The notes below the pieces were generated by a model. The model was not told the origin of the DNA. It saw only the letters and a list, made by a program, of their open reading frames with translations, and ran no database searches. This document shows positions 18,736 to 39,891 of a stretch of 64,000 nucleotides of DNA, piece by piece; within the stretch, counting starts at the first letter, position 1, and each line of letters begins with the position of its first letter. A program made the translations under genes and the position numbers. The stretch spans positions 186,001 to 250,000 of the forward strand of contig DUNO01000066.1 in assembly GCA_012839295.1 (NCBI GenBank). Reading direction: 5' to 3'. Origin of the DNA: Clostridiales bacterium (GTDB lineage: Bacteria; Bacillota; Clostridia; Lachnospirales; Lachnospiraceae).

Positions 18736-18750
18736 TCTCCACGTCTCATT

Positions 18751-21064: not shown

Positions 21065-21079
21065 ATAATTCTTCCTCTT

Positions 21080-22716: not shown

Positions 22717-22738
22717 TTGTCTGTATTAATCAATATTA

Positions 22739-22767: not shown

Positions 22768-22886
22768 CCATATATATCTATTGATACATATTAACATATT
22801 ACTGCATTGTACATTTTTTACACCATTAAAGACGGCACAGGGAACCAAATATATCAAATTCATTATAAATCGGGGGGGATGAGTAT

Positions 22887-23933
22887 ATGGATATGTCTGC
22901 ATTACAGGCGACTTTATATAATCTGAATGAAGATGAATTATTTTATCGGAAATATTATTTTGCAAGGCAACAAGAATATTCTCTTAAAAATTTCATCGCT
23001 ACATTAGACATGAACTATGTCAAGGCAAGAAATCTTCTGATATCAGAACTACCAGAAACAATTCCACCAGAATATGAAGACGAGTGGTATTTTGATTTGA
23101 ATAACAGCCAAAGTATATCCATACTGAAACATAACTGTTATTCCCCTGCAATCCCACACCACCATACTTTTTTTGAATTAATTTATGTTTATGACGGTAA
23201 ATGCAACCAGTCCATCGGAGATAGTAAAATCAAAATGCGTACCGGTGATTTTTGTATCATACCTCCCGGCGTAACGCATACGATAGAAGTGTTTGATGAG
23301 AGCGTTATTATCGATATTTTAATCCGCAAAAATACTTTAGAAAATATTTTCTTTAATTTTTTAAGAAACGATAATATACTTACCATGTTTTTTCTTAACA
23401 ATATTTATTCAAAGAATGTAAATGATTATATTATATTTCACTCTGGCGACGATTATCATATCAGGACTGCTATATCCTATATGTTACTGGAATATATTAA
23501 TAAGGATCAGTATTATTATCAAATGATGAGTAATACAATCATGAATGTATTTGGATTACTGTTAAGAAATTACGAGAAGAATGTGGAGCTACCTTCCATT
23601 GTAAAAAAATCTGATGTACAACGATTTGCACTTGTTCGTTTTATACAAGATAACCATGCAAATGTTACCCTGGAGGATATCTCTAAGAAATTTCATTTTA
23701 CACCGGAATATACTTCCAAGCTTATTAAAGCTACTACTGGTTATACATTTACTCATATTTTACAAAAAATCAGGATGGAAAAAGCGAAATCACTTCTATT
23801 AGATACCAATCTTTCCGTTAGCAGTATAGGACTACAAATTGGTTATGAGACAACAGAGCATTTTATACGCACCTTCAAAAAAAACCAGCAAATGACTCCG
23901 ACAGAATTCAGAAAAAGCAAAGATTTATTTTAG
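22887..23933 (+). CDS. AraC-family transcriptional regulator with cupin sensor
   Basis: A 348-residue one-component regulator. An N-terminal helical stretch (1-75) precedes a cupin-like sugar-binding domain (about 85-180; PHHHTFFELIYVYDGKCNQSI, then TGDFCIIPPGVTHTIEV) and a C-terminal double helix-turn-helix (about 245-345; VTLEDISKKFHFTPEYTSKLIKATTG and SVSSIGLQIGYETTEHFIRTFKK). GGGGGGGA precedes the ATG. It is transcribed divergently from the CUT2/GH3 operon and is its obvious candidate activator, probably responding to the imported sugar. It could also act on the GH30 gene that converges on it from the other side. Confidence 0.9.
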   Translation: MDMSALQATLYNLNEDELFYRKYYFARQQEYSLKNFIATLDMNYVKARNLLISELPETIPPEYEDEWYFDLNNSQSISILKHNCYSPAIPHHHTFFELIYVYDGKCNQSIGDSKIKMRTGDFCIIPPGVTHTIEVFDESVIIDILIRKNTLENIFFNFLRNDNILTMFFLNNIYSKNVNDYIIFHSGDDYHIRTAISYMLLEYINKDQYYYQMMSNTIMNVFGLLLRNYEKNVELPSIVKKSDVQRFALVRFIQDNHANVTLEDISKKFHFTPEYTSKLIKATTGYTFTHILQKIRMEKAKSLLLDTNLSVSSIGLQIGYETTEHFIRTFKKNQQMTPTEFRKSKDLF

Positions 23934-24036: not shown

Positions 24037-27000
24037 TTATTTCAAATATAAATTAAGCTCTGCAATTGACCACCAGTTAGGCGCTTGACCAGTTTGGTTG
24101 ATTCTTAAATATCTAGCAGATACATCAGAGAATTGTATCCTGGTCACTACATCATATCCATAGGCAGTAGCAACCTCCATCCAGTTTGTACCATCTTGTG
24201 AAACAGAAACACTTAACTGCCGCCCATAATCCTCTTTATAATCATGTATCCCACAGTTCAAGGTAACCGTATTAAAAGTCTGTGGTGAACCCAGATCAAC
24301 CTGGAACCATTCGGAACCTGTCTGCGCTATGCCAGAGCTCCATCGTGAGGCCGTATTGTTTATGGAATCTCCACCACCAAAGGATCTGGGATTTTCTCTT
24401 GGCTGCATAAGCTGACCATCAATAGCAACATTGGGATCTCCTCCAATTTCCGTACTGGAAGCTGTTGCAATCCATCCCTGATGGCTAAGTCTAATCCCTA
24501 AATCAGGTGCGCTTTCCACACCATATAAATTAAGTTCTGCAATAGACCAGCTGCTTGCAGCCGATCCAATTTGTGTGATCTTGACATAACGTGCTGCACT
24601 TGCGGTGAAGCTAATATTGTTATCCGCATTCGGAATACTTCCTTGAGCTACTGTATTCCAGGTTACTCCATCCAAAGAAAGCTCTACCCGATATACATTG
24701 GGATAATTATCTAAATAATTGCCTGCATTTAATCCAACACCAGTCAAGATATTGATCTTTCCCATATCGGCTCTGAACCATTCTCCGCCTGTTTGTATTG
24801 TTCCTGCACTCCATCTTGTAGCATTGCTACCATCAAATACATTTGCTTCGGATGAACCGCTGGCTGTCCCCGATGCTGTTGCGCTCCAACCAACTCTGGG
24901 TAAAATAATTGGGTTCTGATTGAATACCCTGAATTCAGATATTGACCAATAATTAGAGGGAGCCGTATCTGTTTGAACAATTTTAATGTATCTTGCCGTC
25001 ACACTCTGGAAGCTGACCTGTACTTTCTCAGCAATACCTACTCCACTGGCAATCGGATTACCCCAGTTTGTCCCGTTGCCCGATACATACAGTTCATATC
25101 CTCTTGGATAATCATTATCATTCCTTCCTGCATCAATTTCAATTTTATTAAAGGTTTTTAATTCTCCCAAGTCGACGGTAAACCATTGTCCATTTTCCTG
25201 TGAGGTTCCATTTGCCCACCTGGTCGTTGCTTTACCGTCAATGGCATTGCTTGCAACGCTGTATGCATCTGTATGAGAAGCCACCGCCGTCCAATTTGTG
25301 TTTGGAAGCAAGCCACCTTTTGTATTATATACCGAAATATCAGCTATGGTCCACCAATGAGGTGCTGCACCAGTGATTTTAATCTGTATATACTGCTTTG
25401 TTTGTGATGCAAAGGTTATATTTGTCATGTTTGGACTTCCTGAGCCTGTCGCAATAGCATTTCCCCAGTTTGTTCCATCCGCTGAAGTATAAAGTTCGTA
25501 TACAACCGGGCAGTCATCTGCAAGTCTTCCACTATTAAGTGTCACCTGATCGAAGGTTTGTACGGAACCAAGATTTAATGTAAATGTTTGTCCATTTGCT
25601 TCATCTATACCACTTGTCCAAAAGGTATCCGTATTGCCGTCAATTGCTTGTGCAGCCGTAAATGCTGCATGCGTATTGGATGCCGTTGCCGTCCAATTGT
25701 CTTTATCCAAAGCTTCTCCGGTCGTTGGTGTATAAACATAGGTAGCCACAGTATCCCCAGGAATGGTATCTGTTATCTCTCCCTCAGGAGTAACGATTTT
25801 TATAGTTTTCGCCGGGGTATTCATGTCAACTGAATTCATTATTTCTGCAATTCTGTTAGAAACAACGATAACAATTGTTCCATCAGGATTCTTAAACGCT
25901 ACATTTGATACGTTTTCAGCCGAAACTTCATTGCTGTCAATCCTAACGGCACCAGCCTGGATATATCTCGAAAATTGCCCAAAATGATAATACCAGTTAT
26001 TAAGCTGGTAGGTACTGGCACCGGGAGTTCCTGCCCACGAGACCTGTGCCTCGGTAAAATAGTCAGGATCCTCTTCTGCATTCCTATCTTGATCCTGCCA
26101 TACACCCGGGCCGGGACCAGGATTCATGAATTCACGAAAGGTCACCCAATACATATAATAGCTCATGTAGTTTCGCATATATTCAATAATCTTTGAAGCC
26201 CCATGTGTCATCTCATCAATTCCGCTTGTCGTATCCGGATATTGATAGTGAAGAGCTGTTGATTCTGTCAATTCATACTGGGAATAGTTATGGAATGCGA
26301 AGGAATCAACGGCTGAAGAAACATTTGCATTGTTCTTTAGAACAGTCGCATAGTCTACGGAGACATTATCATTATCGTCAACGCCCCATATCTTAGTATC
26401 AATATCATTATTCTCAAAGGTCTGTACTAAAATTTCAGCAAATGCTTCATACTGACTTGTGGAAAAACCAGTAGTCGGAAACATATATTCAATTGATGGT
26501 TCGTTTGTAACTGATATGGCGTAAATAGGAATTCCCAGTGCTTTATACGCCTGGATAAACTTTACATAATAGTTTGCCATAGCTTGATAATATTGAGGGT
26601 AAACTGTTCCTCCCCAGAATATGGTGCCAGACGTCTTCATCCATGCTGGTGGTGACCACAAACATGCCATATATTTCACATCAGGGTTTATTTGTAGCAC
26701 CTGTTGCAGCAACGCAATCTTTCCGCTATCAATATCCCTTTGTATAGAAAAATTAGTTAGATCCGGGTCGGTTTCACCTGGCGGCATATCATCATATGTC
26801 CAGGATCCATGATCGGGGAATTCATCCGCAACGTATTCTGGATAAAAATCACAATGTCCGATCGGAATCCTTACCAAGTTATAATTATTGCCTGATGCAG
26901 GATTAAATAAAGCGTTTAAAGCTGCTGCCCTGTCCGCCTCTGATAAACGGGTGAATTCATAAACCGAAGTATTTTCCAGGGATCCACCAAAACCTAGCCA

Positions 27001-27258
27001 AGATTGATAGGTAATTGACGGATCAATGGTAATCGTACCGTCCGCCGTATTATTACTAACAGGCGTAAAAGTCTTATCCATTTGTTGCGTAAGTCGGTTA
27101 TTTGTATCTGTATCATTGTAAGAGCTGTAAATCACTTCTACACTAACGTTCTGGCCAGTAGTGCTCGCCTGTACTGGAGTAGGAGTATAATGAAATCCTG
27201 TTACTAATAATGTTGTTACTAATAACGGTGCAAATATTTGTTTCGTTTTCGATCGCAT
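24037..27258 (-). CDS. Secreted GH30-family hydrolase with four discoidin (F5/8 type C, CBM32-like) domains
   Basis: A 1073-residue exported enzyme. Signal peptide 1 to about 31 (cleavage near PVQA-STTG). GH30 catalytic region about 70-510: WLGFGGSLENTSVYEF, LVRIPIGHCDFYPEY, CLWSPPAWMKTSG, acid/base E253 in VTNEPSIEYMFP, candidate nucleophile E349 in GIDEMTHGAS. This last assignment is by position, and the surrounding sequence departs from the common GH30 motif. Four F5/8 type C domains follow (about 520-650, 651-785, 786-920, 925-1073), each with the WTAxAS...IDG...W...G..Q.F..D.G pattern and ending WWSIAELNLY or similar. No anchor (LPXTG, SLH, dockerin) is seen, so it is probably released. 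GH30 members include beta-1,6-glucanases, glucosylceramidases and xylanases; the substrate is not determined. The start is the ATG after AAGGGGGT; in-frame codons upstream lack a ribosome binding site. Confidence 0.88.
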   Translation of the reverse strand: MRSKTKQIFAPLLVTTLLVTGFHYTPTPVQASTTGQNVSVEVIYSSYNDTDTNNRLTQQMDKTFTPVSNNTADGTITIDPSITYQSWLGFGGSLENTSVYEFTRLSEADRAAALNALFNPASGNNYNLVRIPIGHCDFYPEYVADEFPDHGSWTYDDMPPGETDPDLTNFSIQRDIDSGKIALLQQVLQINPDVKYMACLWSPPAWMKTSGTIFWGGTVYPQYYQAMANYYVKFIQAYKALGIPIYAISVTNEPSIEYMFPTTGFSTSQYEAFAEILVQTFENNDIDTKIWGVDDNDNVSVDYATVLKNNANVSSAVDSFAFHNYSQYELTESTALHYQYPDTTSGIDEMTHGASKIIEYMRNYMSYYMYWVTFREFMNPGPGPGVWQDQDRNAEEDPDYFTEAQVSWAGTPGASTYQLNNWYYHFGQFSRYIQAGAVRIDSNEVSAENVSNVAFKNPDGTIVIVVSNRIAEIMNSVDMNTPAKTIKIVTPEGEITDTIPGDTVATYVYTPTTGEALDKDNWTATASNTHAAFTAAQAIDGNTDTFWTSGIDEANGQTFTLNLGSVQTFDQVTLNSGRLADDCPVVYELYTSADGTNWGNAIATGSGSPNMTNITFASQTKQYIQIKITGAAPHWWTIADISVYNTKGGLLPNTNWTAVASHTDAYSVASNAIDGKATTRWANGTSQENGQWFTVDLGELKTFNKIEIDAGRNDNDYPRGYELYVSGNGTNWGNPIASGVGIAEKVQVSFQSVTARYIKIVQTDTAPSNYWSISEFRVFNQNPIILPRVGWSATASGTASGSSEANVFDGSNATRWSAGTIQTGGEWFRADMGKINILTGVGLNAGNYLDNYPNVYRVELSLDGVTWNTVAQGSIPNADNNISFTASAARYVKITQIGSAASSWSIAELNLYGVESAPDLGIRLSHQGWIATASSTEIGGDPNVAIDGQLMQPRENPRSFGGGDSINNTASRWSSGIAQTGSEWFQVDLGSPQTFNTVTLNCGIHDYKEDYGRQLSVSVSQDGTNWMEVATAYGYDVVTRIQFSDVSARYLRINQTGQAPNWWSIAELNLYLK

Positions 27259-27429
27259 GATAAACCCCCTTTGTATTGTAATATACCTACACATTTTAAT
27301 AAACTTACACAAGCTTTAATTTTTCAACCGTATATACGTTTAACATACAATCATAAGCATCCCCCCTTGTATCTTGACAAATAATCTTTTGTTCAACATT
27401 TGTTCTCCACCCATATTCCGATATATTAC

Positions 27430-30400
27430 TTATTGATATAATCTCAATTCAGCAATTGACCACCAGTTATTTGCCTCACCTGTTTGAATGATCTTAATAT
27501 ATCTGGCATTAGTAGCCGGAAAATTACATCTCAGTATTGAACCATCCCCTAGTCCTGTTGCAATAGTTTCCCAATTCGATAAATCTGTTGATACATAGAT
27601 AATATATCCCCTTATAAAATCATTCAGTTCTGTTCCCACATCAAGTTCCAACTGATTAAAGGTTTGATTGCTTCCTAAATCTATTTGGAACCACTGGCCA
27701 GCTATTTGTGAAGCACCGCTTGTCCATCTTGTATTTATATTTCCGTCCAAAACATTATTTGGGGTACTATCCAAGCTGGTATGAGACGCTGATGCGCTCC
27801 AGCCACTGCTGCCCATCATAGCTTCACCGAATACGGTTAATTCAGCAATTGACCACCAGTTTGCGGCACTGCCAGTCTGCTTAATTCTTAGATATCGCGC
27901 ATTCTGAACTGGGAAATCTATTACAATGGCAGCAGAATCACCTTCTCCTTCAGCTACAGACAACCAATCAATTCCATTGTTGGACACTTCAACCCTATAC
28001 TCTCGCGGATAATCTTCTGTATCCTCCCCTGTGTTTATGAATATTCCATCTATAGTTTGGCTTTGCTTCATATCAATCTGATACCACTGCCCGCCTGCTT
28101 GGGCGATCCCCGTTGACCACCTTGTGTTGATGTTTCCATCAAGTGCATTATTGACAGATCCGCCACTTTCTACAGATGACGCAGACGCCTCCCAGCCTGA
28201 TCGGTTTAATTCAGGTTCACAGTATGCATTTAACTCAAGCACCGACCACCAGTATTTCTTCGTTCCCGTCTGCATTACCCTGATATACTGTGCATACTGC
28301 TTTTCAAACGGGATGACCATTTTGTACCCAAATCCACTGCCGCTTGCTACTGTAACCCAATTAGACGCATCACCAGATACTTGGACCTGATATTCTTTCG
28401 GATAATCCTCGTCATATACTGTTTGTCCACATTCCAGGGATATTTTATTAAACAACTGTTTTTTACCCATATTAATCTGGATCCACTGACCATTCGTCTG
28501 CAATCCCCCCGTTGCCCATCTAGTCCCATAATTTCCATCCAGCATATTGGATGGAGAACCACCAGCTTCCGTTGAGGAAGCCAGGGCAGACCAGTTACTT
28601 CGGTTTAATGCATATTGGTTGATGACTGAGCTCCCATCTTTGGCAAAGAGCTTTATCAGGTTAATCAATCTTTTATTAGGCTTATAATCCGTGGTTGCAA
28701 ATGCATTCCATTTTGAACGGATCGTATCCACATTGTCATTATTGATATCAGGCCCCTGATGACTGTTTGAATGAAAGAATGCCCAGAACTTATTTGGCTC
28801 CCAGCCTTCACTGCCAAGGGTATTTTTATATGACCAGTTTGACCATGATATGTTTAATGCGTTTAATCCATTCATCCACTTTGCCCATAGGTCTTCAAAT
28901 GCCCAGAAGGAATATTCTCCTGCAAAAATCGGAACATTCCATTCTTTCTGGTAATAGGCCAGGTTTTGTAGTGAATAATCTATATAATTATTTTGCGCAT
29001 TCCAGTCAATCGTGTCTCTTCCATTATTAGCTGCCGCATAATGGTGCGTTTCATAGACAACATTTTCCCATCCGAAGGTGGAGGGTGGAACAATTAAGGA
29101 AAAATCCCAAAAGGCATTAATAATGATGATATGATCCGGATCGATGCTACGAACCTCGTTATACAATGTATCATAGAGATTAGCGGTCGCTATACTGCTG
29201 TCACTGCTAACCGGCTCATTCAGTAAATCATATGCGGCAATTGTAGAATTACCCTCATAACGTCCTGCAATTCCCTTCCATATTTCTACGGTTTTATTCT
29301 GGCACCAAGGGTCAGTCCATAGCTCATTTGCATTCGTCTGTCCACTGGTGGGATATCCATTAAGACCTCCAGGTACTCCATGCAGATCGATTATCACATA
29401 GATGCCACGCTCCCTAGCTTCGTTCACTATCCAGTCAAGATGTGTCCATGGGTTTGCTTTCCAGGTACCGTCCTGATTCATGAGCTCCAGCCAGTAAATT
29501 GGAACCCGCACAGCATTGATGCCCATCCCTGCCAGATGATCAAGATCCTCTTCCTGAATATAAGAATCCTGGAATGATTCAAATAAGTTATTTGCGGTAT
29601 CATTCCCAAATCTTTCTGATAGCTTTTGCCTGACGGAATACTCATCCACATGCAAATAAACATTTAGTTCAGAGATCGTCCAGTAATACGATGATATACC
29701 CGTTTGAATAATTTTTATATACCTTGCACCTACCGATGGGAAGTTGACGGGGATTACTTGACGGGTACCATAACCCTTGGCCACCTGTATCCAGTTACTT
29801 CCGTCAACTGATACCAGGATCTCATACTCACGTGCATAATCATTACTGGATTGAGTACCTGAGTCCATCACTATTTGGTTAAATGTATGTGTTGCCCCCA
29901 TATCTATCTGGTACCATTGGCCTTTCGTCTGAGGTGCCCCACTACTCCAGCCCGTAGCTGTGTCACCGTCCAAACCATTACTTGCCAAGGTTCCTGATTG
30001 GGATGCTGTTGCCAGCCATCCCTCCCGGTCAAACGCCCCATCCGTATAAATAGAAAGCTCCGCAATCGACCACCAATTCGATGCTGCATTTTCTGTCTGG
30101 ACTATTTTCAAGTATCTTGCATCATATCCGCCTATGGCCATATATGTAATTCTTGAAGCTCCATATTCATTTAGGACCGTAGTCCAGTCAGCTCCATCCT
30201 TTGACACTTGAACCCTGTAACCACGGGGATAGTCCATGGGGGCAGAGGCTCCTGAATCAAGCAGCAGGCCTTTAACTGGCTGTACTTTTCCCATATCAAT
30301 CTGATACCATTGCCCATCTGCCTGAGCAGTGCCATTGCTCCAGCATGTACTTTGTTCTCCGTCAAATGCATTTCCAGGTGTTGTTCCCACTGCTGAAGAA

Positions 30401-31053
30401 GAGGCAGTTGCTGTCCAGTTTTCCATGCCATAGACAGGTTCTGAATATATATTTATTTCTGCTATAGACCACCAATCTGCTGAACTGCCAGCCTGAATTA
30501 CTTTTATGTACCTTGCGACCTGTGACGAGAAACGTATTACCGTATTCTCTTCATCGCTTGTCCCTGAGGCCACATCTTCCCATGCAGTTCCATCATCTGA
30601 AACCATGATCTGATAAGCAGATGGATAACCTCCAATACAAGAGGCTGCATCAATACTGATCTTGTTAAATAAATGCTTTGTTCCCATATCGATTTGAAAC
30701 CATTGTCCATTGGATTTATTAGCTCCGCTGCTCCAGGTAGTCGATGTATCTCCATCAATAGCCGCTTCTGCATTATCAGCATTAAGCGAAGCTGAAACAA
30801 CCCATCCCTCCCGCTCAAGCCCTGCAACCCCTAATGTCCCCATCCAGTCCTCTTGTAACAGCCAGCCTCCCAGGTTAGTGCCTCTAAGATTTACAATGGA
30901 ACCTATCCCCGAGTGATTTTTTATAAACTTTCCATCTGTTTTTAAAAAATCACTTTCATCCATGGAGGCACTGACATATGTGGGTTGTGGAAGCATCATA
31001 TTCAATGCTAAAGATATTACTAATAATGACAAGACGGTCCTTTTATTTAACAT
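27430..31053 (-). CDS. Secreted GH5-family glucanase with three discoidin domains inserted in the catalytic domain and three at the C-terminus
   Basis: A 1207-residue exported enzyme. Signal peptide 1 to about 29 (near YVSA-SMDE). The GH5 fold opens with NLRGTNLGGWLLQEDW (about 54-70), the start typical of exo-beta-1,3-glucanase-like GH5 enzymes. It is then interrupted by three F5/8 type C domains (about 76-203, 210-338, 340-466) and resumes at DEYSVRQKL (about 470) through about 800. Acid/base E613 (YDLLNEPVS) and nucleophile E713 (FAGEYSFW) are intact. Three more F5/8 domains follow (about 816-944, 948-1075, 1080-1207). The start is an ATG ten bases after AAGGGG; an in-frame TTG 12 codons upstream lacks a site. 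It lies between the Lpl-type permeases and the GH30 gene. A beta-1,3-glucan-like target is inferred from GH5 similarity. Confidence 0.9.
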   Translation of the reverse strand: MLNKRTVLSLLVISLALNMMLPQPTYVSASMDESDFLKTDGKFIKNHSGIGSIVNLRGTNLGGWLLQEDWMGTLGVAGLEREGWVVSASLNADNAEAAIDGDTSTTWSSGANKSNGQWFQIDMGTKHLFNKISIDAASCIGGYPSAYQIMVSDDGTAWEDVASGTSDEENTVIRFSSQVARYIKVIQAGSSADWWSIAEINIYSEPVYGMENWTATASSSAVGTTPGNAFDGEQSTCWSNGTAQADGQWYQIDMGKVQPVKGLLLDSGASAPMDYPRGYRVQVSKDGADWTTVLNEYGASRITYMAIGGYDARYLKIVQTENAASNWWSIAELSIYTDGAFDREGWLATASQSGTLASNGLDGDTATGWSSGAPQTKGQWYQIDMGATHTFNQIVMDSGTQSSNDYAREYEILVSVDGSNWIQVAKGYGTRQVIPVNFPSVGARYIKIIQTGISSYYWTISELNVYLHVDEYSVRQKLSERFGNDTANNLFESFQDSYIQEEDLDHLAGMGINAVRVPIYWLELMNQDGTWKANPWTHLDWIVNEARERGIYVIIDLHGVPGGLNGYPTSGQTNANELWTDPWCQNKTVEIWKGIAGRYEGNSTIAAYDLLNEPVSSDSSIATANLYDTLYNEVRSIDPDHIIIINAFWDFSLIVPPSTFGWENVVYETHHYAAANNGRDTIDWNAQNNYIDYSLQNLAYYQKEWNVPIFAGEYSFWAFEDLWAKWMNGLNALNISWSNWSYKNTLGSEGWEPNKFWAFFHSNSHQGPDINNDNVDTIRSKWNAFATTDYKPNKRLINLIKLFAKDGSSVINQYALNRSNWSALASSTEAGGSPSNMLDGNYGTRWATGGLQTNGQWIQINMGKKQLFNKISLECGQTVYDEDYPKEYQVQVSGDASNWVTVASGSGFGYKMVIPFEKQYAQYIRVMQTGTKKYWWSVLELNAYCEPELNRSGWEASASSVESGGSVNNALDGNINTRWSTGIAQAGGQWYQIDMKQSQTIDGIFINTGEDTEDYPREYRVEVSNNGIDWLSVAEGEGDSAAIVIDFPVQNARYLRIKQTGSAANWWSIAELTVFGEAMMGSSGWSASASHTSLDSTPNNVLDGNINTRWTSGASQIAGQWFQIDLGSNQTFNQLELDVGTELNDFIRGYIIYVSTDLSNWETIATGLGDGSILRCNFPATNARYIKIIQTGEANNWWSIAELRLYQ

Positions 31054-31203
31054 ACTCCATTTTCCCCTTCCATTATTTAACTTTTTCAATATATTTACAT
31101 AATATACCGGTATATTTTTCCAATCTACTGCTTATGTGACATATTAAGTGACATTTGTTTCGTAAATCCCCACCTCACGATGTGGATCCTTTTCTAGGCG
31201 CAC

Positions 31204-32091
31204 TCATCCTTTTACTGCACCAATCGTTATTCCTTTTACAAAATAATTCTGGAAAAACGGATAAGCTATCATTATCGGAATTACTCCCAGTACTGCAATG
31301 GCCATTCTTATGCCTACACTTGGCATTTGCATGCCGGCCACTCCTGCCTGGCCCACTTTAGAGACAGTGGCCAAGAACTGCACATTCAGCAGCATCTGGT
31401 TCAACAATTGCTGCACGCTGTACAATTTGGTATTCGTTATAAAATATAACCCATTCGTCCAGTCGTTCCAGTAACCTAATACAGACATTAGCCCCAGCGT
31501 CGCAATAATGGGCTTTGACATAGGTGCCACGATTTTATATAGAATTCGGTACTCACTGGCTCCATCAATTCTTGCTGCCTCAATTACCTCTTCCGGAATA
31601 CTCGACAAAAAGAAGGAACGTGCCATCATAACACTAAACGCATTTAATAAAAGATTTGGTAATAACAACGCCCAAATTGTATTCTTAATTCCGAATCCCC
31701 TAGTCCACATAATGTAATATGGAACCAGCCCTCCATTAAATAGCATCGTTAACATAACATAAAACGATAGTAGCCTTTTAAATCTTAGCTCCCTCCTGGA
31801 AAGTGGATAGGCCAGTAAAATCGTTATTAAAAGACTTAAAGAAACACCAGCTGCCGTTACCAGGAACGTTATTCCATATGCGTTAAAAATCACTTCTGAT
31901 TTCTGTAAAATATATCGATAGGCATCCAGGCTGAATTCCTTCGGGAAGAAATTGTACCCATAGCGAATCAATGCGTTTTCAGAAGAAAATGAGGATGACA
32001 CAAGCAAGAGAAATGGAAGAATGCAGCTTGCGGCCAATAACAATAAAATAATATTTGCAAATGCCTGAAACCAACTTATTTTTTTTAACAT
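31204..32091 (-). CDS. Oligosaccharide ABC transporter permease, LplC/YtcP-like
   Basis: A 295-residue, six-helix CUT1-type permease of the LplC/YtcP group that works with LplA-type binding proteins. EAA coupling loop: EAARIDGASEYRILYKIVAPMSKP. It ends VKGITIGAVKG. AGGAGG precedes the ATG by seven bases. It is 11 bp downstream of its partner permease. No ATPase is encoded in this cluster, so a shared MsmX-type ATPase is expected. The following 150 bp before the GH5 start hold a short GTGACAT direct repeat but no clear terminator. Confidence 0.9.
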   Translation of the reverse strand: MLKKISWFQAFANIILLLLAASCILPFLLLVSSSFSSENALIRYGYNFFPKEFSLDAYRYILQKSEVIFNAYGITFLVTAAGVSLSLLITILLAYPLSRRELRFKRLLSFYVMLTMLFNGGLVPYYIMWTRGFGIKNTIWALLLPNLLLNAFSVMMARSFFLSSIPEEVIEAARIDGASEYRILYKIVAPMSKPIIATLGLMSVLGYWNDWTNGLYFITNTKLYSVQQLLNQMLLNVQFLATVSKVGQAGVAGMQMPSVGIRMAIAVLGVIPIMIAYPFFQNYFVKGITIGAVKG

Positions 32092-32102
32092 AGGTATACC
32101 TC

Positions 32103-33044
32103 CTAAAATATCCCTTCTGATCCACTATATCTATTCACAATCTTATTAGCCGCCAATACTAAGACAAAGCCTACCAATGATTGATAAAGACCAGCTGCTG
32201 ACGCCATTCCCATATCATTCAGCTGTGACATAGCCCGATAAACATAAGTATCTATTGTATTTGTTGCATTCTGTAGCATACCTGAATTCATAGGTACTTG
32301 ATAAAACAAACCAAAATCCGAATAGAATATCTTTCCTATGCTTAACAAGGTCATTGTAAATACCGTCTGCTTCAACCCAGGAAGGGTTATGTTTATAAGC
32401 TGCTGCCAGCGGCTTGCTCCATCGACAGAGGCCGCCTCATAGTATGAGCGGTCAATAGAAATCAGTGTCGCATAATATATGATGCAGTTAAAGCCAAAGC
32501 CTTTCCAAAGATTAACGACAATCAAAATAATTGGCCAGTATCTGGGTTCTGTATACCAGGAAACGGCCTCCTTCCCAAGGGCATTAAGAATCGTATTGTT
32601 AATAAAACCATTGTCAGCACTTAACAGCGCAAAGACAAGATAACTCACTACCACAATCGAAATCAATGCAGGTAGTAGGATTGTAGTTTGATATACCTTC
32701 TGTATCCACTTAACGGTAATTTCATTCAATAAGATTGCAACCGTAATAGCACATAACGTTCCTAATACAATAAAAGCAAAATTATATAATAGCGTATTTC
32801 TTGTTATGAGCCATGCGTCCTGCGTTTGAAATAAGTATGTAAAATTTTTCAAACCAACAAATTTACTCTTTAATATTCCTACTGAAAAATCCAACTCTTT
32901 AAATGCGATAATCACGCCCGTCATTGGGATATAATTATTAACAAACAGGTAAGTTAACCCTGGGAGCATCATAAGAAAAAATGCACTATCTCGCTTTCGT
33001 TTTTTATTCTTTTTTTTAACTTTTGTTTGTTGCAGATTTGACAT
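32103..33044 (-). CDS. Oligosaccharide ABC transporter permease, LplB-like
   Basis: A 313-residue CUT1-type permease of the LplB group. A lysine/arginine-rich N-terminus (KVKKKNKKRKRD) precedes LMMLPGLTYLFVNNYIPM, the family's first helix. The EAA loop is EAASVDGASRWQQLINITLPGLKQ. AAGGGAGG precedes the ATG. It is separated from the response regulator upstream by 161 bp that contain that gene's terminator, so the permeases probably have their own promoter under response-regulator control. Confidence 0.9.
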   Translation of the reverse strand: MSNLQQTKVKKKNKKRKRDSAFFLMMLPGLTYLFVNNYIPMTGVIIAFKELDFSVGILKSKFVGLKNFTYLFQTQDAWLITRNTLLYNFAFIVLGTLCAITVAILLNEITVKWIQKVYQTTILLPALISIVVVSYLVFALLSADNGFINNTILNALGKEAVSWYTEPRYWPIILIVVNLWKGFGFNCIIYYATLISIDRSYYEAASVDGASRWQQLINITLPGLKQTVFTMTLLSIGKIFYSDFGLFYQVPMNSGMLQNATNTIDTYVYRAMSQLNDMGMASAAGLYQSLVGFVLVLAANKIVNRYSGSEGIF

Positions 33045-33124
33045 TCTAAAACCTCCCTTTCTTTGTTACCAGTTTAATAAAAATGGACTTTTCTCTCTAC
33101 CCGAAATATAATCTGATCTATCAT

Positions 33125-33166
33125 AAAAATGACAGGAGATCGTATCACTACAATTTCCCGTCATTT
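33125..33166 (-). terminator. Terminator of the two-component operon
   Basis: AAATGACAGGAGAT (33127-33140) pairs with ATTTCCCGTCATTT (33153-33166), with two positions compensated as G-U pairs in RNA. A five-T run follows on the minus strand. It lies 40 bp past the response-regulator stop codon. Confidence 0.75.
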
Positions 33167-33205
33167 CTTCTTACATTATTTTCTTTATTTTACTCACCTC
33201 ATCCT

Positions 33206-34795
33206 TTATGACTTCCTTTCCTTCTCATACTGCTTTCTGATATGCATTGGTGATGTTTCATATACTTTCCTAAATGTCTGAGAAAAATGTGAAAAGTTTT
33301 TGTATCCTACCCGGATAGCAATATCACTAACCAAAATATCCGTGTTTATTAAATAACTGTAGGCTAATTTCATCTTTTCATAAATAACATAATCACTTAG
33401 GGTCATCCCCATTTCCTTCTTAAACAATCTGGATAAATACTCCGGTGAAATATAAAGTAGCTCTGCCAGCTTAGTCCTGGAAATATCCTTTTCAATATGT
33501 TCCCCGATATACATGCACGCCTTTTCGATATAGGATTGTCCTGCATCATTAGCATCGATATGTTCCAGAAAATGCATGGCATATTCCACTAGCTTGCACA
33601 TATCCTCCACCGAGTGGTGTGCATGAATGTATTTTTCAAAAATGACATCCTCCACAAAAAAATCATGTACCTTTACTTTTTTATATGAAATAATATGAAA
33701 GAACATCTGTATGAAGCTTTGGTAGAAATTCTCCAGTATCTTTATATTTACGATATCCTCTTCATTCCACGTATCCAGTAGCTCAAGCATTTCTTTTCTG
33801 ACCTCTTTATAACAGCCCTGTTCCATCATTTTTTCCCACTTTTCCATATCCGGCTGGACAAGATGGTAGCTCTGCATGATTTTCCACCGTTGTTTTGTAT
33901 GTACTGCACTTTTATAAATCACGTTGTTTTGCTCCATATCATAGAGCGTCCCCATTTCTTCATATAGGTCTTGAAATTCGACTTCATTTCCGAGGTAGCA
34001 GGTAACAGAAAAATGTAGTGCCTCTTCACAGAATTGAACAAATTTCTGAAGCTGATCCACCGAAACCCCCGATACATTATCTGACAATATTAAGAAAGCA
34101 CAATTCATTAAATCTAACTGTGTGCTTAAATATTGACCCGTATTTAGGTTGAATATTTCGCAGAGGATATTATCAAATGCATACCGTATCAGATCATCCT
34201 CCCACATCCCTTCCGGTTTGCGATTGCCTATCATATGGATTAGAATTGGAATCACCTTTGTATCCTGTTGTAATTTATAACCCATCGTATGCATCTTCTC
34301 AATTACTGTTTTACAGGACTGGTCATTTTTCAATAAATATGGCTTTAATACAGTATCCAGAATATCCCGTTCCTGCTTCTTCCAATACCTCCCATAATCA
34401 TAGATCTCTAACATTTCATTGGTATTCTTTTGATGTTTGACCGCCCTGGCAAGTACTTGCTGAATCTCAGAATACGGCGCTGGTTGCAAAATATAGTCAA
34501 AGCATCCCAGCTTCACCGCCTCCTGGGCAAATTCAAACTCTGCATGGGCTGATAGAAGGATAAATTCAATTTTTTCTTTTCTCTGTTTAACCCATCTTAA
34601 AAGCTCGATGCCATTTCCCATTGGCATCTCAATATCACAAAGTATTATCTGTATGCTATGGACGTTTATTATCTCTTTTGCATCCTGGATATTATAGGCA
34701 TAAAAAACGTTATCTACCCCAAGCTCCTCCCAATTGACAGCCCGGATAATACCTTTCACTATATCAACCTGGTCATCCACAATACAAATATTCAT
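33206..34795 (-). CDS. YesN-type response regulator (REC plus AraC-type DNA-binding domain)
   Basis: A 529-residue response regulator. Receiver domain about 1-120 with the acidic pocket IVDDQ, phospho-acceptor aspartate in IILCDIEMPMGNG (D54), switch serine in LLSAH and a lysine position replaced around YILQPAPYSE, where the usual KP motif reads QP: the conserved receiver lysine is glutamine here. A long helical linker (about 130-415) leads to two helix-turn-helix motifs (about 425-525; ISRTKLAELLYISPEYLSRLFKK). AGAGGGGG precedes the ATG, and the start overlaps the kinase stop by four bases. It should activate the Lpl-type importer and perhaps the glycosidases. Confidence 0.92.
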   Translation of the reverse strand: MNICIVDDQVDIVKGIIRAVNWEELGVDNVFYAYNIQDAKEIINVHSIQIILCDIEMPMGNGIELLRWVKQRKEKIEFILLSAHAEFEFAQEAVKLGCFDYILQPAPYSEIQQVLARAVKHQKNTNEMLEIYDYGRYWKKQERDILDTVLKPYLLKNDQSCKTVIEKMHTMGYKLQQDTKVIPILIHMIGNRKPEGMWEDDLIRYAFDNILCEIFNLNTGQYLSTQLDLMNCAFLILSDNVSGVSVDQLQKFVQFCEEALHFSVTCYLGNEVEFQDLYEEMGTLYDMEQNNVIYKSAVHTKQRWKIMQSYHLVQPDMEKWEKMMEQGCYKEVRKEMLELLDTWNEEDIVNIKILENFYQSFIQMFFHIISYKKVKVHDFFVEDVIFEKYIHAHHSVEDMCKLVEYAMHFLEHIDANDAGQSYIEKACMYIGEHIEKDISRTKLAELLYISPEYLSRLFKKEMGMTLSDYVIYEKMKLAYSYLINTDILVSDIAIRVGYKNFSHFSQTFRKVYETSPMHIRKQYEKERKS

Positions 34796-36486
34796 CCCTG
34801 ATCCCCCTCTTCTCCCTCGGTTATTTGGAAAACTATTTCAACAGCAGCTCCATGGTTGCTGTTATAAAAATAGATGGATGCTTTTTCTCCATAAATCAAT
34901 TTTATTCTCTTTTTTACGTTTGCAATCCCTACATATTGATCTGAATATATATTCTCCATATCACCATTTATTATATTTAGCATGTCTTCCGGGAATCCAG
35001 TTCCATTATCCTCTATCCGGATATGTAATTTACCTTTTGTTTCTGTTGCTTCTATTTTTAGCATCAGGCCGACACCTGGCTTCATTCCATATTTAAAGGA
35101 ATTCTCTACAAAGGTTTCTAAGGTAAGGGTGGGTATTTTAAATTCATAAAATTTAGAGGCAATGGAAATATCATATTCAATTGTATAACTGGTACTAAGT
35201 TGCTGAATACGGATATAATTCTTAATATGCTCTAATTCTAACTGTAACGGCACCAAAGAGAGGTTATCCTTAAAATTGTAGCGTATATGCTGGGAGATGG
35301 CCAGGATCATCTCCTGGATTTGTTGGTACTTCTGGCATTCTACCCTTGCATATATGATTTTAAGACAGTTCAGGAAAAAATGTGGGCGTATTTGCAGCTG
35401 CAGGTATTGAAGCTGCGCCCTTTTCTTCTCAATTTCATTTTCATATGCTTCGATTTTAAATTTTTTAATTTCATATATCATAGTATTAAAAGTATCACTA
35501 ACGCGCCGATACTCAATAATTCCAAAATCATCCTCCATTTTTTCTTCGGTATGTCCTTCTTTTATCCGCTCCATTGTATCCATGAGCTTCTTGAGCGGGC
35601 TGGTAATATATTTCTCAATCCACCAAATGCTTATTGGGATAATGAGTATGGTTAACAAGGAGACTATCATTAGGATAAGCTGTACATGATTTAAATTACT
35701 GATGTAACCGGAATTGGAAATCATCATTTTCAGGCTTAAATCCGTATTCTGAATTTTCTCACCAATTACCATATGTCTGGGTTTTCCAGAGAAAACAATA
35801 TTATCATTATCGTAGTCAAATGAAATCTGATTTTTATTGATATAATCCTTTTCCACTATGGCTTGATTTAAACTTGTGCAAAAGGTTATCCTGCTTACAT
35901 CATTCCCTTTCTCCATCGCTAAACTGCATTTTTCCATATCAATAAATGATATGATGTATGTTTCATTTCGTCCTAGGATGCGGTACAAGACCGGCTTAGA
36001 TCCCACGTCAAGAATATGCCATTCTTTTGAAAGCCCTTCGCTCTTTTCTAGGCTTGAGGTTACATATTTCCGTATTTTTAGTTGTGTATCGTAAGTAAAG
36101 CCTTTTATAAATACAGCTTGTTCAACCTTCTTATCCTTGTTATATAGTACATAGCCCCCGACCTCTTCCTGCATGGCTAAATTACTCTTTAAGCTTTGCA
36201 TTACTTCCCATGCTCCGGTATAGGCATCCAAACTATTTTCTGTGTTTACCAGCTGCTGGAAGGAATAATTATTTGCAACTATTTCTGCAACAAAAGTCTC
36301 CACATTTTTTATTTTCTTCTGGATTTGATTCTGATATATGATAAGCCGTGTTCGATTCGACTGCTCAATTTTATCATTATAGATATGGATGGAATAAAAA
36401 TTATAAAATAGTAACAACAAGATTATTGGAAACAATATTCGAAATAGCACGCCCAATATCTTTCTTTTAAACGTTTCTATCTTCAT
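34792..36486 (-). CDS. YesM-type sensor histidine kinase
   Basis: A 564-residue membrane kinase. Two membrane segments (about 12-32 and 265-285) flank a large extracellular sensor of about 235 residues. A HAMP segment (about 290-345) leads to the His_kinase domain, with phospho-acceptor histidine in LQIRPHFFLNCLKII (H373), and an HATPase_c domain with LETFVENSFKYGMK and EDNGTGFP. AGGAGGGG precedes the ATG. It shares a four-base overlap with its response regulator. In this family the sensor usually detects extracellular oligosaccharide, directly or through the binding protein. Confidence 0.92.
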   Translation of the reverse strand: MKIETFKRKILGVLFRILFPIILLLLFYNFYSIHIYNDKIEQSNRTRLIIYQNQIQKKIKNVETFVAEIVANNYSFQQLVNTENSLDAYTGAWEVMQSLKSNLAMQEEVGGYVLYNKDKKVEQAVFIKGFTYDTQLKIRKYVTSSLEKSEGLSKEWHILDVGSKPVLYRILGRNETYIISFIDMEKCSLAMEKGNDVSRITFCTSLNQAIVEKDYINKNQISFDYDNDNIVFSGKPRHMVIGEKIQNTDLSLKMMISNSGYISNLNHVQLILMIVSLLTILIIPISIWWIEKYITSPLKKLMDTMERIKEGHTEEKMEDDFGIIEYRRVSDTFNTMIYEIKKFKIEAYENEIEKKRAQLQYLQLQIRPHFFLNCLKIIYARVECQKYQQIQEMILAISQHIRYNFKDNLSLVPLQLELEHIKNYIRIQQLSTSYTIEYDISIASKFYEFKIPTLTLETFVENSFKYGMKPGVGLMLKIEATETKGKLHIRIEDNGTGFPEDMLNIINGDMENIYSDQYVGIANVKKRIKLIYGEKASIYFYNSNHGAAVEIVFQITEGEEGDQG

Positions 36487-36516
36487 GACCCCTCCTGTGT
36501 TCCTATCTTAGCCATG

Positions 36517-36556
36517 GAAAAGAGAAGAGGATCTGTATACTCCATCCTCTTCCCTT
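36517..36556 (-). terminator. Terminator after the LplA-like lipoprotein gene
   Basis: GAAGAGGAT / ATCCTCTTC perfect nine-base stem (36524-36532 / 36544-36552), followed on the minus strand by TCTCTTTTCC. It lies 19 bp past the lipoprotein stop codon, so transcription may drop before the two-component genes. Confidence 0.7.
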
Positions 36557-36570
36557 TTATACCATATATT

Positions 36571-38118
36571 TTACTGGTTACCCTTCGCCTTTACCCATTC
36601 ATCAATTTGCACTTGTTTTTCAGCGATTATTTTATCCAAACCGGCCTTTTTCAACTCTTCATTCATCTGCGGCAGCGCCTCTTTCGGATCCACTACGCCT
36701 GCTTGAAGGGCTCTGACATATTTATCGGTAATATTAGTGCAGGTTGTTATTTCTGCCTTTACATTTGAACTGTCAAAGGTATACCCCATAGCCCCTGACT
36801 TAATGGCTTTCGCATTAAATTCAGCTAATTCATTCCAATAATCCGGTGAATTACCATTCCATATGGCTGCTTTGAATTGATTAAACCAAGCCCAGCCCAA
36901 GGAAGGTGAATATGGTGTTGTATTGGCATCTAATCCATCTGCATAATCAATTATGTTATTGTCCTTATCAACGTATTTGTAATGTACGTTCTCAATCCCA
37001 TAAATCAATAAGTTGTTTAGTTCAAAGCTGGTATATGCAAAGTTTAGGAATTTCATCGCTGCCTCTGAATTTTTACTGTTGCTTGAGATACACCAGGTTA
37101 AACCAGCCGCATTGCCTGTGAGAGATAGAGGCTCTGCCAGATTAATCCTTACGACCTCATACCCTGTATCACGCTGTACTTGTTCTTCAAATCCCGGCTT
37201 CATGCCCGCAAAAGCTCCCACTGCCTTGCCGCTTCTTACTAGGCTCTCACTGGTTTCCGTATTGTTCAGCACATCTTTCATAATCAGGCCTTCCTGATAC
37301 CACCTGTGCATGGTTTCCGTATAGTTCTTGTATTCCTCCGTTTCATACAAATTAACTACCTGTAACTCCTTGCCATAATCCATAAGAACCCCTAGTCCAT
37401 TGGAAAGATCATCCCAGTTTGATATTCCTACCGGCACAGCATTTGACTGGGGTACCACCGGATATAAATCCGGTTCGCCTTTATGGATCGTCAGCAAAGC
37501 TTTTTCAATATCCTCCAAGGTTTTAAGGCTATTGACATCAATATTATATTTATCACATAAATCCTTGCGCATCCAGAATCCATTCTGGGCAGCTAAATCA
37601 CGGTTTGTAGTGATTCCGTATAGCTTTCCACTTACCTTGCCGCAATCCAAATAATCCGCTCCTATGGCTTCAGGAATATCTGCTCCATACTGGGCAAGTA
37701 GCTCATCTAAAGCCTGAACTTGTCCGTTAGCCACATAGGTAGCCAGAGGTGTAGCAAAAGCCGGAAAAATATCCAGCTCCTCACCACTGGATAGAATCAT
37801 GTTCATCTGCTGTTGCCAGGAGCTTCCGGGAATAACTTCGATCTCAAGGACGATGTTTAATTCTCTCAGGGTTATTTCATTTGCTTTTTTAAGTACTGCG
37901 TCCATGTCATCCATATTAGCATAATTAAAAATTGCCAAATGAAGGGTTGTAGGTTCCTCAGCTTTTACTTCTTTCTCTGCTCCCTCTGTCGCTTTTACTT
38001 CTGCTGCATTCCCATCCGTGTTTACCTCCTTTTCCGTAGCCTTATTGCCACCTGCGCATCCGGCTAACAGAGTAAAAATCATAATTCCCATAAGTACTGT
38101 TGCTAATTTCTTTTTCAT
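36571..38118 (-). CDS. LplA-like oligosaccharide-binding lipoprotein
   Basis: A 515-residue binding lipoprotein: signal peptide, lipobox LLAGC (cysteine at residue 21), Lys/Glu-rich linker to about residue 55, then a large type-2 binding fold of the LplA/YtcQ kind. LYGITTNRDLAAQNGFWMRKDL matches the family's ligand-lobe segment. GGAGGA precedes the ATG. It is placed upstream of the kinase rather than next to the permeases, but the family pairing with LplB/LplC permeases is clear. Ligand unknown; probably an oligosaccharide released by the GH5 and GH30 enzymes. Confidence 0.9.
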   Translation of the reverse strand: MKKKLATVLMGIMIFTLLAGCAGGNKATEKEVNTDGNAAEVKATEGAEKEVKAEEPTTLHLAIFNYANMDDMDAVLKKANEITLRELNIVLEIEVIPGSSWQQQMNMILSSGEELDIFPAFATPLATYVANGQVQALDELLAQYGADIPEAIGADYLDCGKVSGKLYGITTNRDLAAQNGFWMRKDLCDKYNIDVNSLKTLEDIEKALLTIHKGEPDLYPVVPQSNAVPVGISNWDDLSNGLGVLMDYGKELQVVNLYETEEYKNYTETMHRWYQEGLIMKDVLNNTETSESLVRSGKAVGAFAGMKPGFEEQVQRDTGYEVVRINLAEPLSLTGNAAGLTWCISSNSKNSEAAMKFLNFAYTSFELNNLLIYGIENVHYKYVDKDNNIIDYADGLDANTTPYSPSLGWAWFNQFKAAIWNGNSPDYWNELAEFNAKAIKSGAMGYTFDSSNVKAEITTCTNITDKYVRALQAGVVDPKEALPQMNEELKKAGLDKIIAEKQVQIDEWVKAKGNQ

Positions 38119-38319
38119 GGTTCTCCTCCATTCAATATTGATAAATAAAGATTAGCAGGTATTCTTAATTGCAACTACCGATATTATGATTTCAACTTTA
38201 TATATTATGACCTACTTTTCTTCAATAGCCAAAACGGTATCCTCATTCCAATATGCTCACCCGCTCTTAACTTAATATGCACTAATGCAGTTCGCAGAAT
38301 CTATCATTATACAGTATAC

Positions 38320-39891
38320 TCAACTGCCGGCTCGTGCCTTTTTACTAAGCAACCCCATAAGATTCACATTTGTTTCGTAATTATTACTGCTGTATTGTCC
38401 CCACTTATAACAAATTGTTTCATAGGAGTCTTTTAGTAAATCAGCAAACTCTCCTTTAAAATGGTATCTGCATGCCCAATTATCTTGAATATTGGGATCG
38501 ATATTTTTGTAATTCCAGTTAGACCAGCTTACTCCCATGATTTCCAGTCCATCCAGCCAGTATTCCCAAACGTCTAGAAACTCCCAAAAACAAAACTCTC
38601 CAATCAACACAGGTACCTTCCATTTATTTTGATATTTCTTAATTATGGCTATGTAACTGTCAACGCTTCTCTCCACCTCATCATGATCTCTCCAATTACT
38701 GGCATAGCAATGGATTTGGTATATTACCTGCTCCCACCCCCGTTCCTCGGGATTGCCCAACAAATCATTATCTATAAAAGGTTGAACACTAAGAATATGC
38801 ATATCACCAGTTGACCTTGCCGCATCGTATAGCTTTTGATAAACAGTCTGTATCTGTATTCTCACATCATCACATAAATGTACTTCACCAGAAATTAGAT
38901 GTTCATCATTTCCGTCAACGATGTATTTATCCGAAGAATCATATATATCAACAGCCGGTTCATTTAATAGATCAAATGCTGCTATTGTCGGCTCGTCCTT
39001 ATAACGATTAACCAGCGCTTTTATTATTCTACAGCTCATATCTTGATATTCTTCCTTATTCCAGAATTCATTGAAATCTAATTGCCCACAGGTAATACTG
39101 CCAGATGTATGCCCTCCAGGAGCCCCATGATAATCCAACATAACATAAATCTCTTTTTCCCTGCACTTTTCAATTAACCAATCCAACTCACTAAATGCAC
39201 TTTCTTTTATGCTTCCATCCGAATTCATTATTTCCTGCCAGTAAATTGGGATACGCACAAGATTAAATCCTATTTTTTTTATTTCCTCCAGGTCTTCATC
39301 AGAAATATATGCTTTCTTATAAATAGTGAGTAATTCTTCCATCTTCTGCTTACCAAAACGCTCTTCTAATATTTTGCGGGAAATGAATTCATCAACATCT
39401 CCATATCTCATGATTGCTGATATTTCATTGGAAGATTCACACTCCAATTTAACAAATCTTGATCTCACTTCATTAAAGCATATTTTCCCATCATATAGAT
39501 ACGTACCGAAATTATAAGTTTTCCCAGAAATATCATAAGGTACTGGTTTACCTTCGGGGAATGGACATCGTTCCGGCTCATTCAAATTAACAGTGCAAAT
39601 TTCGTCCCATGTTATTCCGTCATTGGAAGAATGTAACTTGATTCTTTCATCTGTTTGGGAAACTATCTTTATTCTATTAAAGCGCTTCACTTCTCCAAAA
39701 TCATAGATTGTACATTCTTCTAAATGACGCGTATCCTTTATGGAGACTGGTATTTCAAATGCGCCCGTATCCATCCAGCCCTCACGTAGAAGCCATCCGC
39801 CTAAATTAGTTCCTCTTAATATAATTCTTTTTCCTTTATCATTTACTAGCTCTGAACCCTCGCAATGGAGCATATCAATTTTTTTAAACAT
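38320..39891 (-). CDS. Cytoplasmic GH5-family glucanase with an inserted discoidin-like domain
   Basis: A 523-residue enzyme without signal peptide. The GH5 domain opens with LRGTNLGGWLLREGWM (25-40), is interrupted by one divergent F5/8-like beta domain (about 45-163; DFGEVKRFNRIKIVS, HSSNDGITWDEI, SRFVKLECES), and resumes at DEFISRKIL (167) to about 515. Acid/base E311 (FDLLNEPAV) and nucleophile E432 (LIGEFCFW) are intact. It is a clear paralogue of the secreted GH5 at 27430-31053, with the insertion at the same point. AAAGGTG precedes the ATG by eight bases. A role in trimming imported oligosaccharides is inferred from the lack of a signal peptide. Its stop is about 200 bp from the lipoprotein start. 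Confidence 0.9.
   Translation of the reverse strand: MFKKIDMLHCEGSELVNDKGKRIILRGTNLGGWLLREGWMDTGAFEIPVSIKDTRHLEECTIYDFGEVKRFNRIKIVSQTDERIKLHSSNDGITWDEICTVNLNEPERCPFPEGKPVPYDISGKTYNFGTYLYDGKICFNEVRSRFVKLECESSNEISAIMRYGDVDEFISRKILEERFGKQKMEELLTIYKKAYISDEDLEEIKKIGFNLVRIPIYWQEIMNSDGSIKESAFSELDWLIEKCREKEIYVMLDYHGAPGGHTSGSITCGQLDFNEFWNKEEYQDMSCRIIKALVNRYKDEPTIAAFDLLNEPAVDIYDSSDKYIVDGNDEHLISGEVHLCDDVRIQIQTVYQKLYDAARSTGDMHILSVQPFIDNDLLGNPEERGWEQVIYQIHCYASNWRDHDEVERSVDSYIAIIKKYQNKWKVPVLIGEFCFWEFLDVWEYWLDGLEIMGVSWSNWNYKNIDPNIQDNWACRYHFKGEFADLLKDSYETICYKWGQYSSNNYETNVNLMGLLSKKARAGS

Follow-up and report, generated by a model that had tools for sequence, protein, structure and literature searches.

How carbohydrate-binding domains come to lie within a catalytic domain, and why they do so at the same point in two paralogues, are the questions raised by a gene cluster of a Clostridiales bacterium (assembly GCA_012839295.1, contig DUNO01000066.1, positions 186,001 to 250,000). 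In this stretch of 64,000 nucleotides, here called the window, two members of glycoside hydrolase family 5 (GH5) are encoded, a secreted protein (P0001) and a cytoplasmic paralogue (P0002). The initial annotation of the window held that discoidin (F5/8 type C) domains interrupt both catalytic domains, three in P0001 and one diverged domain in P0002, and suggested that an ancestral insertion had since expanded in the secreted copy and decayed in the cytoplasmic one. Both open reading frames (ORFs) were recovered on the minus strand where it had placed them.

Discoidin domains split the GH5 barrel after its first strand

Pfam assigned the Cellulase family (PF00150, cut-off 23.5 bits) to P0001 with E=1.5e-31 (110.3 bits, best stretch 508-756) and to P0002 with E=6.1e-26 (92.0 bits, stretch 191-463). 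Six F5/8 type C stretches were found in P0001, three ahead of the GH5 core and three behind it, both by Pfam and by a hidden Markov model (HMM) of discoidins; this HMM was trained on the inserts themselves, and the Pfam runs are the independent test. In a fragment of P0001 ending near the GH5 core, the three inserted stretches scored 215.7 bits against a cut-off of 28.2. The N-terminus of P0001 resembles a signal peptide by eye, and while the ORF call begins at a TTG, the ATG at 31053 appears by eye to be the likelier start because it directly precedes the signal-like stretch. The catalytic columns (Arg, His, Asn-Glu, His, Tyr, Glu and Trp) were invariant in the alignments containing P0002 (A2) and P0001 (A3), so both active sites are intact, as initially annotated. 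We take the conserved Arg, His, Asn, His/Tyr and Trp together with the two catalytic glutamates to be the residues that define GH5.

The split point was located with a second HMM, built from 20 insert-free relatives. It broke P0001 at model position 47 on both sides (47/47); P0002 was matched up to position 64 on the N-terminal side and from position 45 on the core side. Every inserted protein with both halves in one ORF was split by this HMM (n=27, including P0001 and P0002; numbers beginning with L denote related loci, described below). The core-side break fell at positions 43-48 in 25 of the 27; in L082 and L083, whose match extends backward into the insert, it fell at 29 and 25. The N-side break fell at 47-49 in 23 of the 27 and at 63-79 in L041, L046, L072 and P0002, where the match extends onward. 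Within the reach of this comparison, the insertion point is common to P0001 and P0002.

AlphaFold2 models were made of P0002 from a 20-sequence alignment (mean predicted local distance difference test score, pLDDT, 80.6) and of a P0001 fragment, numbered from residue 44, from 15 sequences (79.1). The model of P0002 has a strand at 26-29, the insert, helices at 168-207 and a strand at 211-217, and that of P0001 a strand at 26-29, the insert, helices at 440-478 and a strand at 483-489. In both models β1, insert, α1 and β2 are followed by further barrel strands in order, which places the insert in the β1-α1 loop. Both proteins are thus predicted to form a (β/α)8 barrel that includes the N-terminal RGTNLGGWL strand, in line with what the initial annotation had expected of a structure prediction. 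The β1-α1 loop of such barrels generally lies on the catalytic face. Pfam, the insert-free HMM and the model together describe P0001 as β1, three discoidins and the remaining barrel, and the insert of P0002 is predicted, with low confidence, to be all-β with seven strands.

Among the matches listed in the fold searches, a GH5_22 exo-β-xylosidase ranked first for both models. It was followed by exo-β-1,3-glucanases for P0002 and, for P0001, mostly by discoidins of CBM32, neuropilin and coagulation factors, with GH5 barrels lower. None of the solved structures considered (the best 60 of 157 by sequence and the best 50 per fold search) is a GH5 described as carrying a discoidin insert, a statement that rests on entry titles, which cannot exclude such a split.

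The inserted and C-terminal trios pair in order

A tree was built of 57 discoidin domains from 11 proteins, eight of which gave three inserted (I1-I3) and three C-terminal domains (C1-C3), and three of which (L039, L042 and L068) gave C1-C3 only. One- and two-domain inserts were all excluded, as were seven other proteins with three inserts, namely L075 and L081 with full C-terminal trios and five with fewer C-terminal domains in the available sequence. The domains paired by their position in the trio: I1 with C1 (support 97/93), I2 with C2 (92/86) and I3 with C3 (98/94). The six position groups correspond to five changes, the minimum possible, and P0001 conforms to them. A single clade of all inserted domains, a group defined after the tree had been seen, was rejected by the approximately unbiased (AU) test (p=0.018). 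The pairing of inner and outer trios in the order 1-2-3 argues that the trio was copied en bloc between the loop and the C-terminus. As judged from the domain sequences, the insert is a three-domain cassette that was block-copied, in either direction, and not grown from one ancestral domain. The expansion initially proposed for the secreted copy is not supported by these results.

In a wider tree of 91 domains, all 11 middle inserts and 12 of the 15 first inserts still clustered by position. Inserts were assigned to I1, I2 or I3 with half-domain profiles, which placed 109 of 114 halves correctly in a leave-one-out trial and 16 of 18 for three left-out trios. By these profiles L068 is I1 followed by I3, and L080, L082 and L083 each have an I1-like N half, an ambiguous C half and then I3; the two-domain inserts look, by their sequences, like reductions of the three-domain cassette. 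For the one-domain inserts, the C halves of L043 and L072 leaned towards I2 (23.4 and 20.7) and their N halves towards C1 or C2. The N halves of L039 and L042 leaned towards C2 (9.6 and 3.7) with negative C halves, and all half-domain scores of L040 and L041 were negative. The insert of P0002 gave I2 for its N half (9.2) and C3 for its C half (8.8), and L046 lay outside this test.

Distribution and history of the insert

The 79 related loci (L039-L117) come from one scan of GTDB species genomes, which used RGTNLGGW and one further motif as seeds and is therefore not a census of GH5. The loop was filled with one or more discoidins in 27 of the 79 loci and empty in 52, so a discoidin is not a constant feature of this loop. 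One inserted domain was found in seven loci (L039-L043, L046 and L072), two in four (L068, L080, L082 and L083), three in 14 (L050, L056, L057, L063, L070, L074-L077, L079, L081 and L084-L086) and at least one in two broken-frame loci (L078 and L110). F5/8 type C scored above the Pfam cut-off in all 27, with L043 scored as a whole protein with two such stretches, and no insert was of another fold. The hosts are Bacillota, Actinomycetota and one Chloroflexota, and the inserted GH5 of Cohnella, Gordonibacillus, Micromonospora, Streptomyces, Microbacterium and others have the same split with one to three discoidins. The initial remark that insertion is rarer than addition at an end holds when terminal modules are the comparison, but about a third of these loci (27/79) have the site filled, as does plant GH5_14.

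Trees of the catalytic core were built with inserts removed, from 89 rows and from 60 rows (without L110 and L078). One clade contains all inserted rows, with support of 100/96 and 98/96, respectively. An insert-free Paenibacillus/Thermoactinomyces group falls inside this clade and joins L040/L041 (100/99). The insert state amounts to two changes on the 60-row tree, and one gain followed by a later loss is the simplest reading of the insert's history in these sequences. AU tests were run on a 38-row set. They rejected a clade of inserted rows without the insert-free Paenibacillus/Thermoactinomyces group (p=0.008) and the joining of L040/L041 to the main inserted clade (p=0.003). Neither P0001 with the main inserted clade (p=0.06) nor the same grouping with P0002 (p=0.07) was rejected.

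P0002 grouped with L043/L072 (96/96, 60 rows) and, when these rows were left out, with P0001 (88/74). Its place inside the clade of inserted enzymes had support of 98/96 with these nearest rows and 81/99 without them. Grouping with the insert-free proteins of its own genus was rejected (AU p=6e-16), as was grouping with L013 (p=0.043). Since P0002 falls within the inserted clade and has the same split point, the simplest reading is that both inserts go back to one ancestral insertion, as the initial annotation had suggested. Searches for relatives of P0002, each count including its own genome, found them in 98 of 299 family-sample genomes, in 3 of 398 phylum-sample genomes at E<=1e-20 and in 30 of 34 genus genomes; no insert was present in the nine same-genus loci fetched. 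In ten loci, a second GH5 is encoded close to the inserted one (L042:3044-4699, L050:3139-4764, L076:3171-4730 and seven more); where read, it is of the GVGFGSWLLPEGYM type. These ten form one clade (100/99), which is another branch of GH5, and P0002 is unlike them.

Some loci showed further peculiarities. Single in-frame stops split otherwise readable inserted GH5 genes (TAG in L110 at 5490-5492 and in L118 at 775-777, TAA in L046 at 5820-5822) and may be sequence errors or mark pseudogenes; no difference between L110 and L118 was seen in the 630 bases compared, and both may represent one genome. In Cohnella terricola, one ORF (L067:3147-8237) encodes two near-identical insert-free GH5 domains. 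The insert-free L044, L059 and L066 have a C-terminal match to DUF7910, below the cut-off in two of the three, and two of them have a weak ricin-type β-trefoil match in the C-terminal region. As the plant enzymes have a β-trefoil in the loop, the two kinds of module may trade places.

A remote likeness to discoidins in the insert of P0002

The insert of P0002 scored below both Pfam cut-offs for F5/8 type C (14.5 and 16.4 bits against 28.2 and 27.8; E=0.038 and 0.015) and the HMM of inserted discoidins gave no match to it even at E=10. When aligned by hhalign with eleven inserted domains it scored 26.2 (25.8%). Shuffled sequences averaged 10.8 with a maximum of 19.1, so that 0 of 200 reached its score, and four core stretches of P0002 scored 8.4 to 12.4 in the same comparison. 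Alignment with six single inserts gave 2.5%. The match spans 40 columns (DFGEVKRFNRIKI...SSNDGITW), and the alignments showed that the DG-x3-T-x-W stretch of the trio is absent from P0002 and incomplete also in L043 and L072. We read this insert as a discoidin whose recognisable first half is lost, the likeness being remote; its initial description as discoidin-like is borne out by hhalign, but not by Pfam.

The inserts of the P0002 relatives L046 and L072 barely passed the Pfam cut-off (32.5 and 30.9 bits against 28.2) and were the weakest of ten inserts scored alone, and L043 and L072 had the lowest scores with the HMM of inserted discoidins. By eye, the L043 and L072 proteins look secreted. 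The weak inserts of L072 and L046, together with the apparent secretion of L072, imply that part of the divergence of P0002 is older than, or unrelated to, its cytoplasmic location. Erosion of the cytoplasmic insert is plausible. The initial claim of decay in the cytoplasmic copy fits the state of the insert, but its relatives had weak inserts already.

The gene cluster and its likely substrate

The cluster runs in the order cytoplasmic GH5, binding protein, two-component system, two permeases, inserted GH5 and GH30 (Table 1). The best NCBIfam model for the GH30 is an endo-1,6-β-glucanase, at 166.9 bits and under its cut-off of 700. In the 91-domain tree, the last of the four discoidins of the GH30 falls among the last-inserted domains (97/70, on a long branch), hinting at an exchange of modules between neighbouring genes. 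A GH3, ATP-binding cassette (ABC) importer genes and an AraC regulator adjoin the cluster at 15942-23933, which makes it probable that the sugar-use region extends beyond the cluster itself.

Table 1. Positions in the window of the two GH5 genes, their parts and the neighbouring genes
Feature	Position	Strand	Details
P0001, secreted GH5 with 3 inserted and 3 C-terminal discoidin domains	27430..31089	-	1219 aa
P0001 GH5 N-terminal segment with strand β1, LRGTNLGGWLLQEDW	30844..30888	-	residues 68-82; insert-free-relatives HMM positions 2-47; AlphaFold2
P0001 insert in β1-α1 loop	29653..30825	-	391 residues; residues 89-479
P0001 inserted discoidin I1	30442..30819	-	residues 91-216; pairs with C1
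P0001 inserted discoidin I2	30040..30426	-	residues 222-350; groups with C2
P0001 inserted discoidin I3	29653..30036	-	residues 352-479; pairs with C3
P0001 remaining GH5 barrel, starts HVDEYSVRQKL	28552..29652	-	residues 480 to about 846
P0001 acid/base Glu (NEP)	29215-29217	-	
P0001 nucleophile Glu	28915-28917	-	
P0001 C-terminal trio C1-C2-C3	27436..28611	-	residues 827-956, 960-1087, 1092-1218
P0002, cytoplasmic GH5 paralogue	38320..39891	-	523 aa; no signal peptide by eye
P0002 β1 segment, LRGTNLGGWLLREGW	39775..39819	-	residues 25-39
P0002 insert, read as diverged discoidin-like	39403..39759	-	about 113 residues; about residues 45-163
P0002 remaining GH5 barrel	38332..39402	-	from about residue 163
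P0002 acid/base Glu	38959-38961	-	
P0002 nucleophile Glu	38596-38598	-	
GH30 with four C-terminal discoidins, next cluster gene	24037..27312	-	Pfam GH30 E=7.5e-26
Two ABC permeases (BPD_transp_1)	31204..33044	-	
Response regulator with AraC-type DNA-binding domain and histidine kinase	33206..36486	-	
Extracellular solute-binding protein	36571..38118	-	
AraC regulator, left of cluster	22887-23933		

Similar neighbours were found in relatives. As read from sequence starts, the inserted GH5 of L042 and of L050 is preceded by permease-like genes and by a GH5 from another branch, and in L039 and L043 genes resembling those of kinases and regulators adjoin it; in L056 a GH3 follows it. The content of the cluster and the neighbours of its relatives point to β-glucan, possibly that of fungal walls, as the substrate. 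Among the matches listed, the nearest solved chain by profile is the GH5_22 exo-β-xylosidase 9ku5 (E=8.6e-64), which is not a placement in a CAZy subfamily.

A proposed history and its alternatives

We propose that a GH5 lineage akin to exo-β-glucanases gained discoidin domains of the CBM32 type in the β1-α1 loop, on the catalytic face. Along the line of P0001, the inserted part would be a three-domain cassette, a block copy of the C-terminal cassette or of its source. The inserted trio most likely holds polysaccharide, probably β-1,3/1,6-glucan, at the entrance of the active site, and the C-terminal trio would tether the enzyme at a distance. The GH30 would act outside alongside P0001, the ABC importer would take in the oligosaccharides and P0002 would finish them. 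As soluble oligosaccharides need no polysaccharide-binding module, the insert of P0002 would be free to erode further under relaxed selection. We lean towards this explanation as a whole, with its loop-acquired discoidins, block-copied cassette, inner grip and outer tether, and erosion in P0002.

Several observations weigh against it. The C2 rows taken alone were not one clade in the 57-domain tree, and the pairing was weaker in the 91-domain tree, where the last inserts joined C3 at 81/93 and the first inserts and C1 were not joined. The one-domain inserts match no single position of the trio by half-domain profiles. The insert of P0002 is low in model confidence (block means 34-85), and the branch leading to P0002 in the core trees is very long (1.5-1.9). 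Its erosion is not explained by cytoplasmic life alone, because its nearest relatives, secreted by eye, also have weak inserts. The substrate is deduced from neighbouring genes and from distantly related structures, and the closest of these structures, 9ku5, is that of a xylosidase.

The poor fit of the one-domain inserts to any trio position means that they could be separate insertions, and this leads to an alternative history in which the β1-α1 loop is a permissive hot spot that was filled repeatedly, with the trio and the single inserts (L040/L041; L043/L072 with P0002; L039/L042) all independent. The many negative half-domain scores among single inserts, the different trio positions preferred by the two halves of L043 and of L072, and the nested insert-free Paenibacillus/Thermoactinomyces group, without which a clade of inserted rows was rejected (AU p=0.008), would all agree with such a history. 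So would the plant enzymes, which have a different, fascin-like module after the same strand (PMC3526467, PMC10858996). We nevertheless consider repeated insertion less likely, as all 27 inserts are discoidins by Pfam, the split point is equal within a few residues, and parsimony needs two changes with a loss as against more gains.

For the insert of P0002, the main rival to erosion is a structural role, with the domain conserved as a lid or a dimer interface and giving the pocket of P0002 its shape. Its predicted all-β layout and readable F5/8 stretch were kept in a protein whose barrel is at most 39% identical to the other rows compared, and the insert was retained, while the nested insert-free group suggests that deletion is possible. 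The missing DG-x3-T-x-W stretch and the low-confidence stretch at 107-133, which interrupts the insert in the AlphaFold2 model, speak against such a lid, which we regard as doubtful. That the inserted trio of P0001 serves merely as a spacer or stabiliser of the barrel, without binding sugar, appears improbable, since P0001-type inserted domains lie far above the F5/8 type C cut-off and binding to glucans and chitin is known for a related discoidin of bacterial origin (PMC2789033).

Returning to block copying and erosion, a wider view can be put forward tentatively, and we rate it somewhat below even. The cassette would have been duplicated as a unit, which would give the enzyme a matched pair of grips, one at the pocket and one farther away; in plants, a β-trefoil would have filled the loop independently; P0002 would have moved to the cytoplasm, where its insert became unrecognisable; and the loop would be a general socket for modules in exo-acting GH5 enzymes. 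Binding modules are usually seen as tethers at the end of an enzyme, and here they are built into a loop beside the active site. As the copy number in the loop ranges from 0 to 3 and a matched C-terminal set exists, natural variants could be used to test the position of a module against catalysis. P0002 would offer a natural case of an inserted module losing its recognisable form.

Comparison with known systems

The closest published counterpart is plant GH5_14, an exo-β-1,3-glucosidase subfamily for which Aspeborg and others (PMC3526467) give a fascin-like module after strand 1 as a unique feature. In cotton GhGH5BG, GH5 comprises residues 25-53 and 194-495 and the module residues 64-176 (PMC10858996). 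Rice GH5BG and cotton GhGH5BG resemble the proteins described here in having a module after β1 of the GH5 barrel and in their kinship with exo-glucanases. They differ in that the module is a single fascin-like β-trefoil and the hosts are plants, in contrast to one to three discoidins in bacteria. With a discoidin as its module and a prokaryotic genome, P0001 falls outside GH5_14.

MtGlu5, a GH5 endoglucanase of Meiothermus taiwanensis, likewise has a carbohydrate-binding module within the GH5 barrel, and deletion of this inserted CBM29-like domain cuts catalytic efficiency (PMC9063844). There the module is of another kind and, to judge by its residues Trp249 to Gln337 and the catalytic Glu149 and Glu393, appears to be placed later in the barrel than the position behind strand 1. 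The nearest solved barrels by profile and fold, among the matches listed, are the GH5_22 exo-β-xylosidase of Geobacillus thermodenitrificans (9ku5, 9kua) and exo-β-1,3-glucanases (8z2w, 1cz1, 6zb9); 9ku5 differs in having no insert after β1 in its sequence match. A discoidin of a Paenibacillus β-1,3-glucanase binds laminarin, chitin and other glucans and boosts the enzyme on composite substrates (PMC2789033). No description of discoidins inserted in a GH5 loop was found in the open-licence PMC literature, searched by title and start of abstract, among the matches listed. The layout is real and found widely among bacteria, and a counterpart has been published for plants. To this, the present analysis adds the block relation between inner and outer trios, a nested loss or repeated gains of the insert, and a cytoplasmic paralogue whose insert has diverged strongly.

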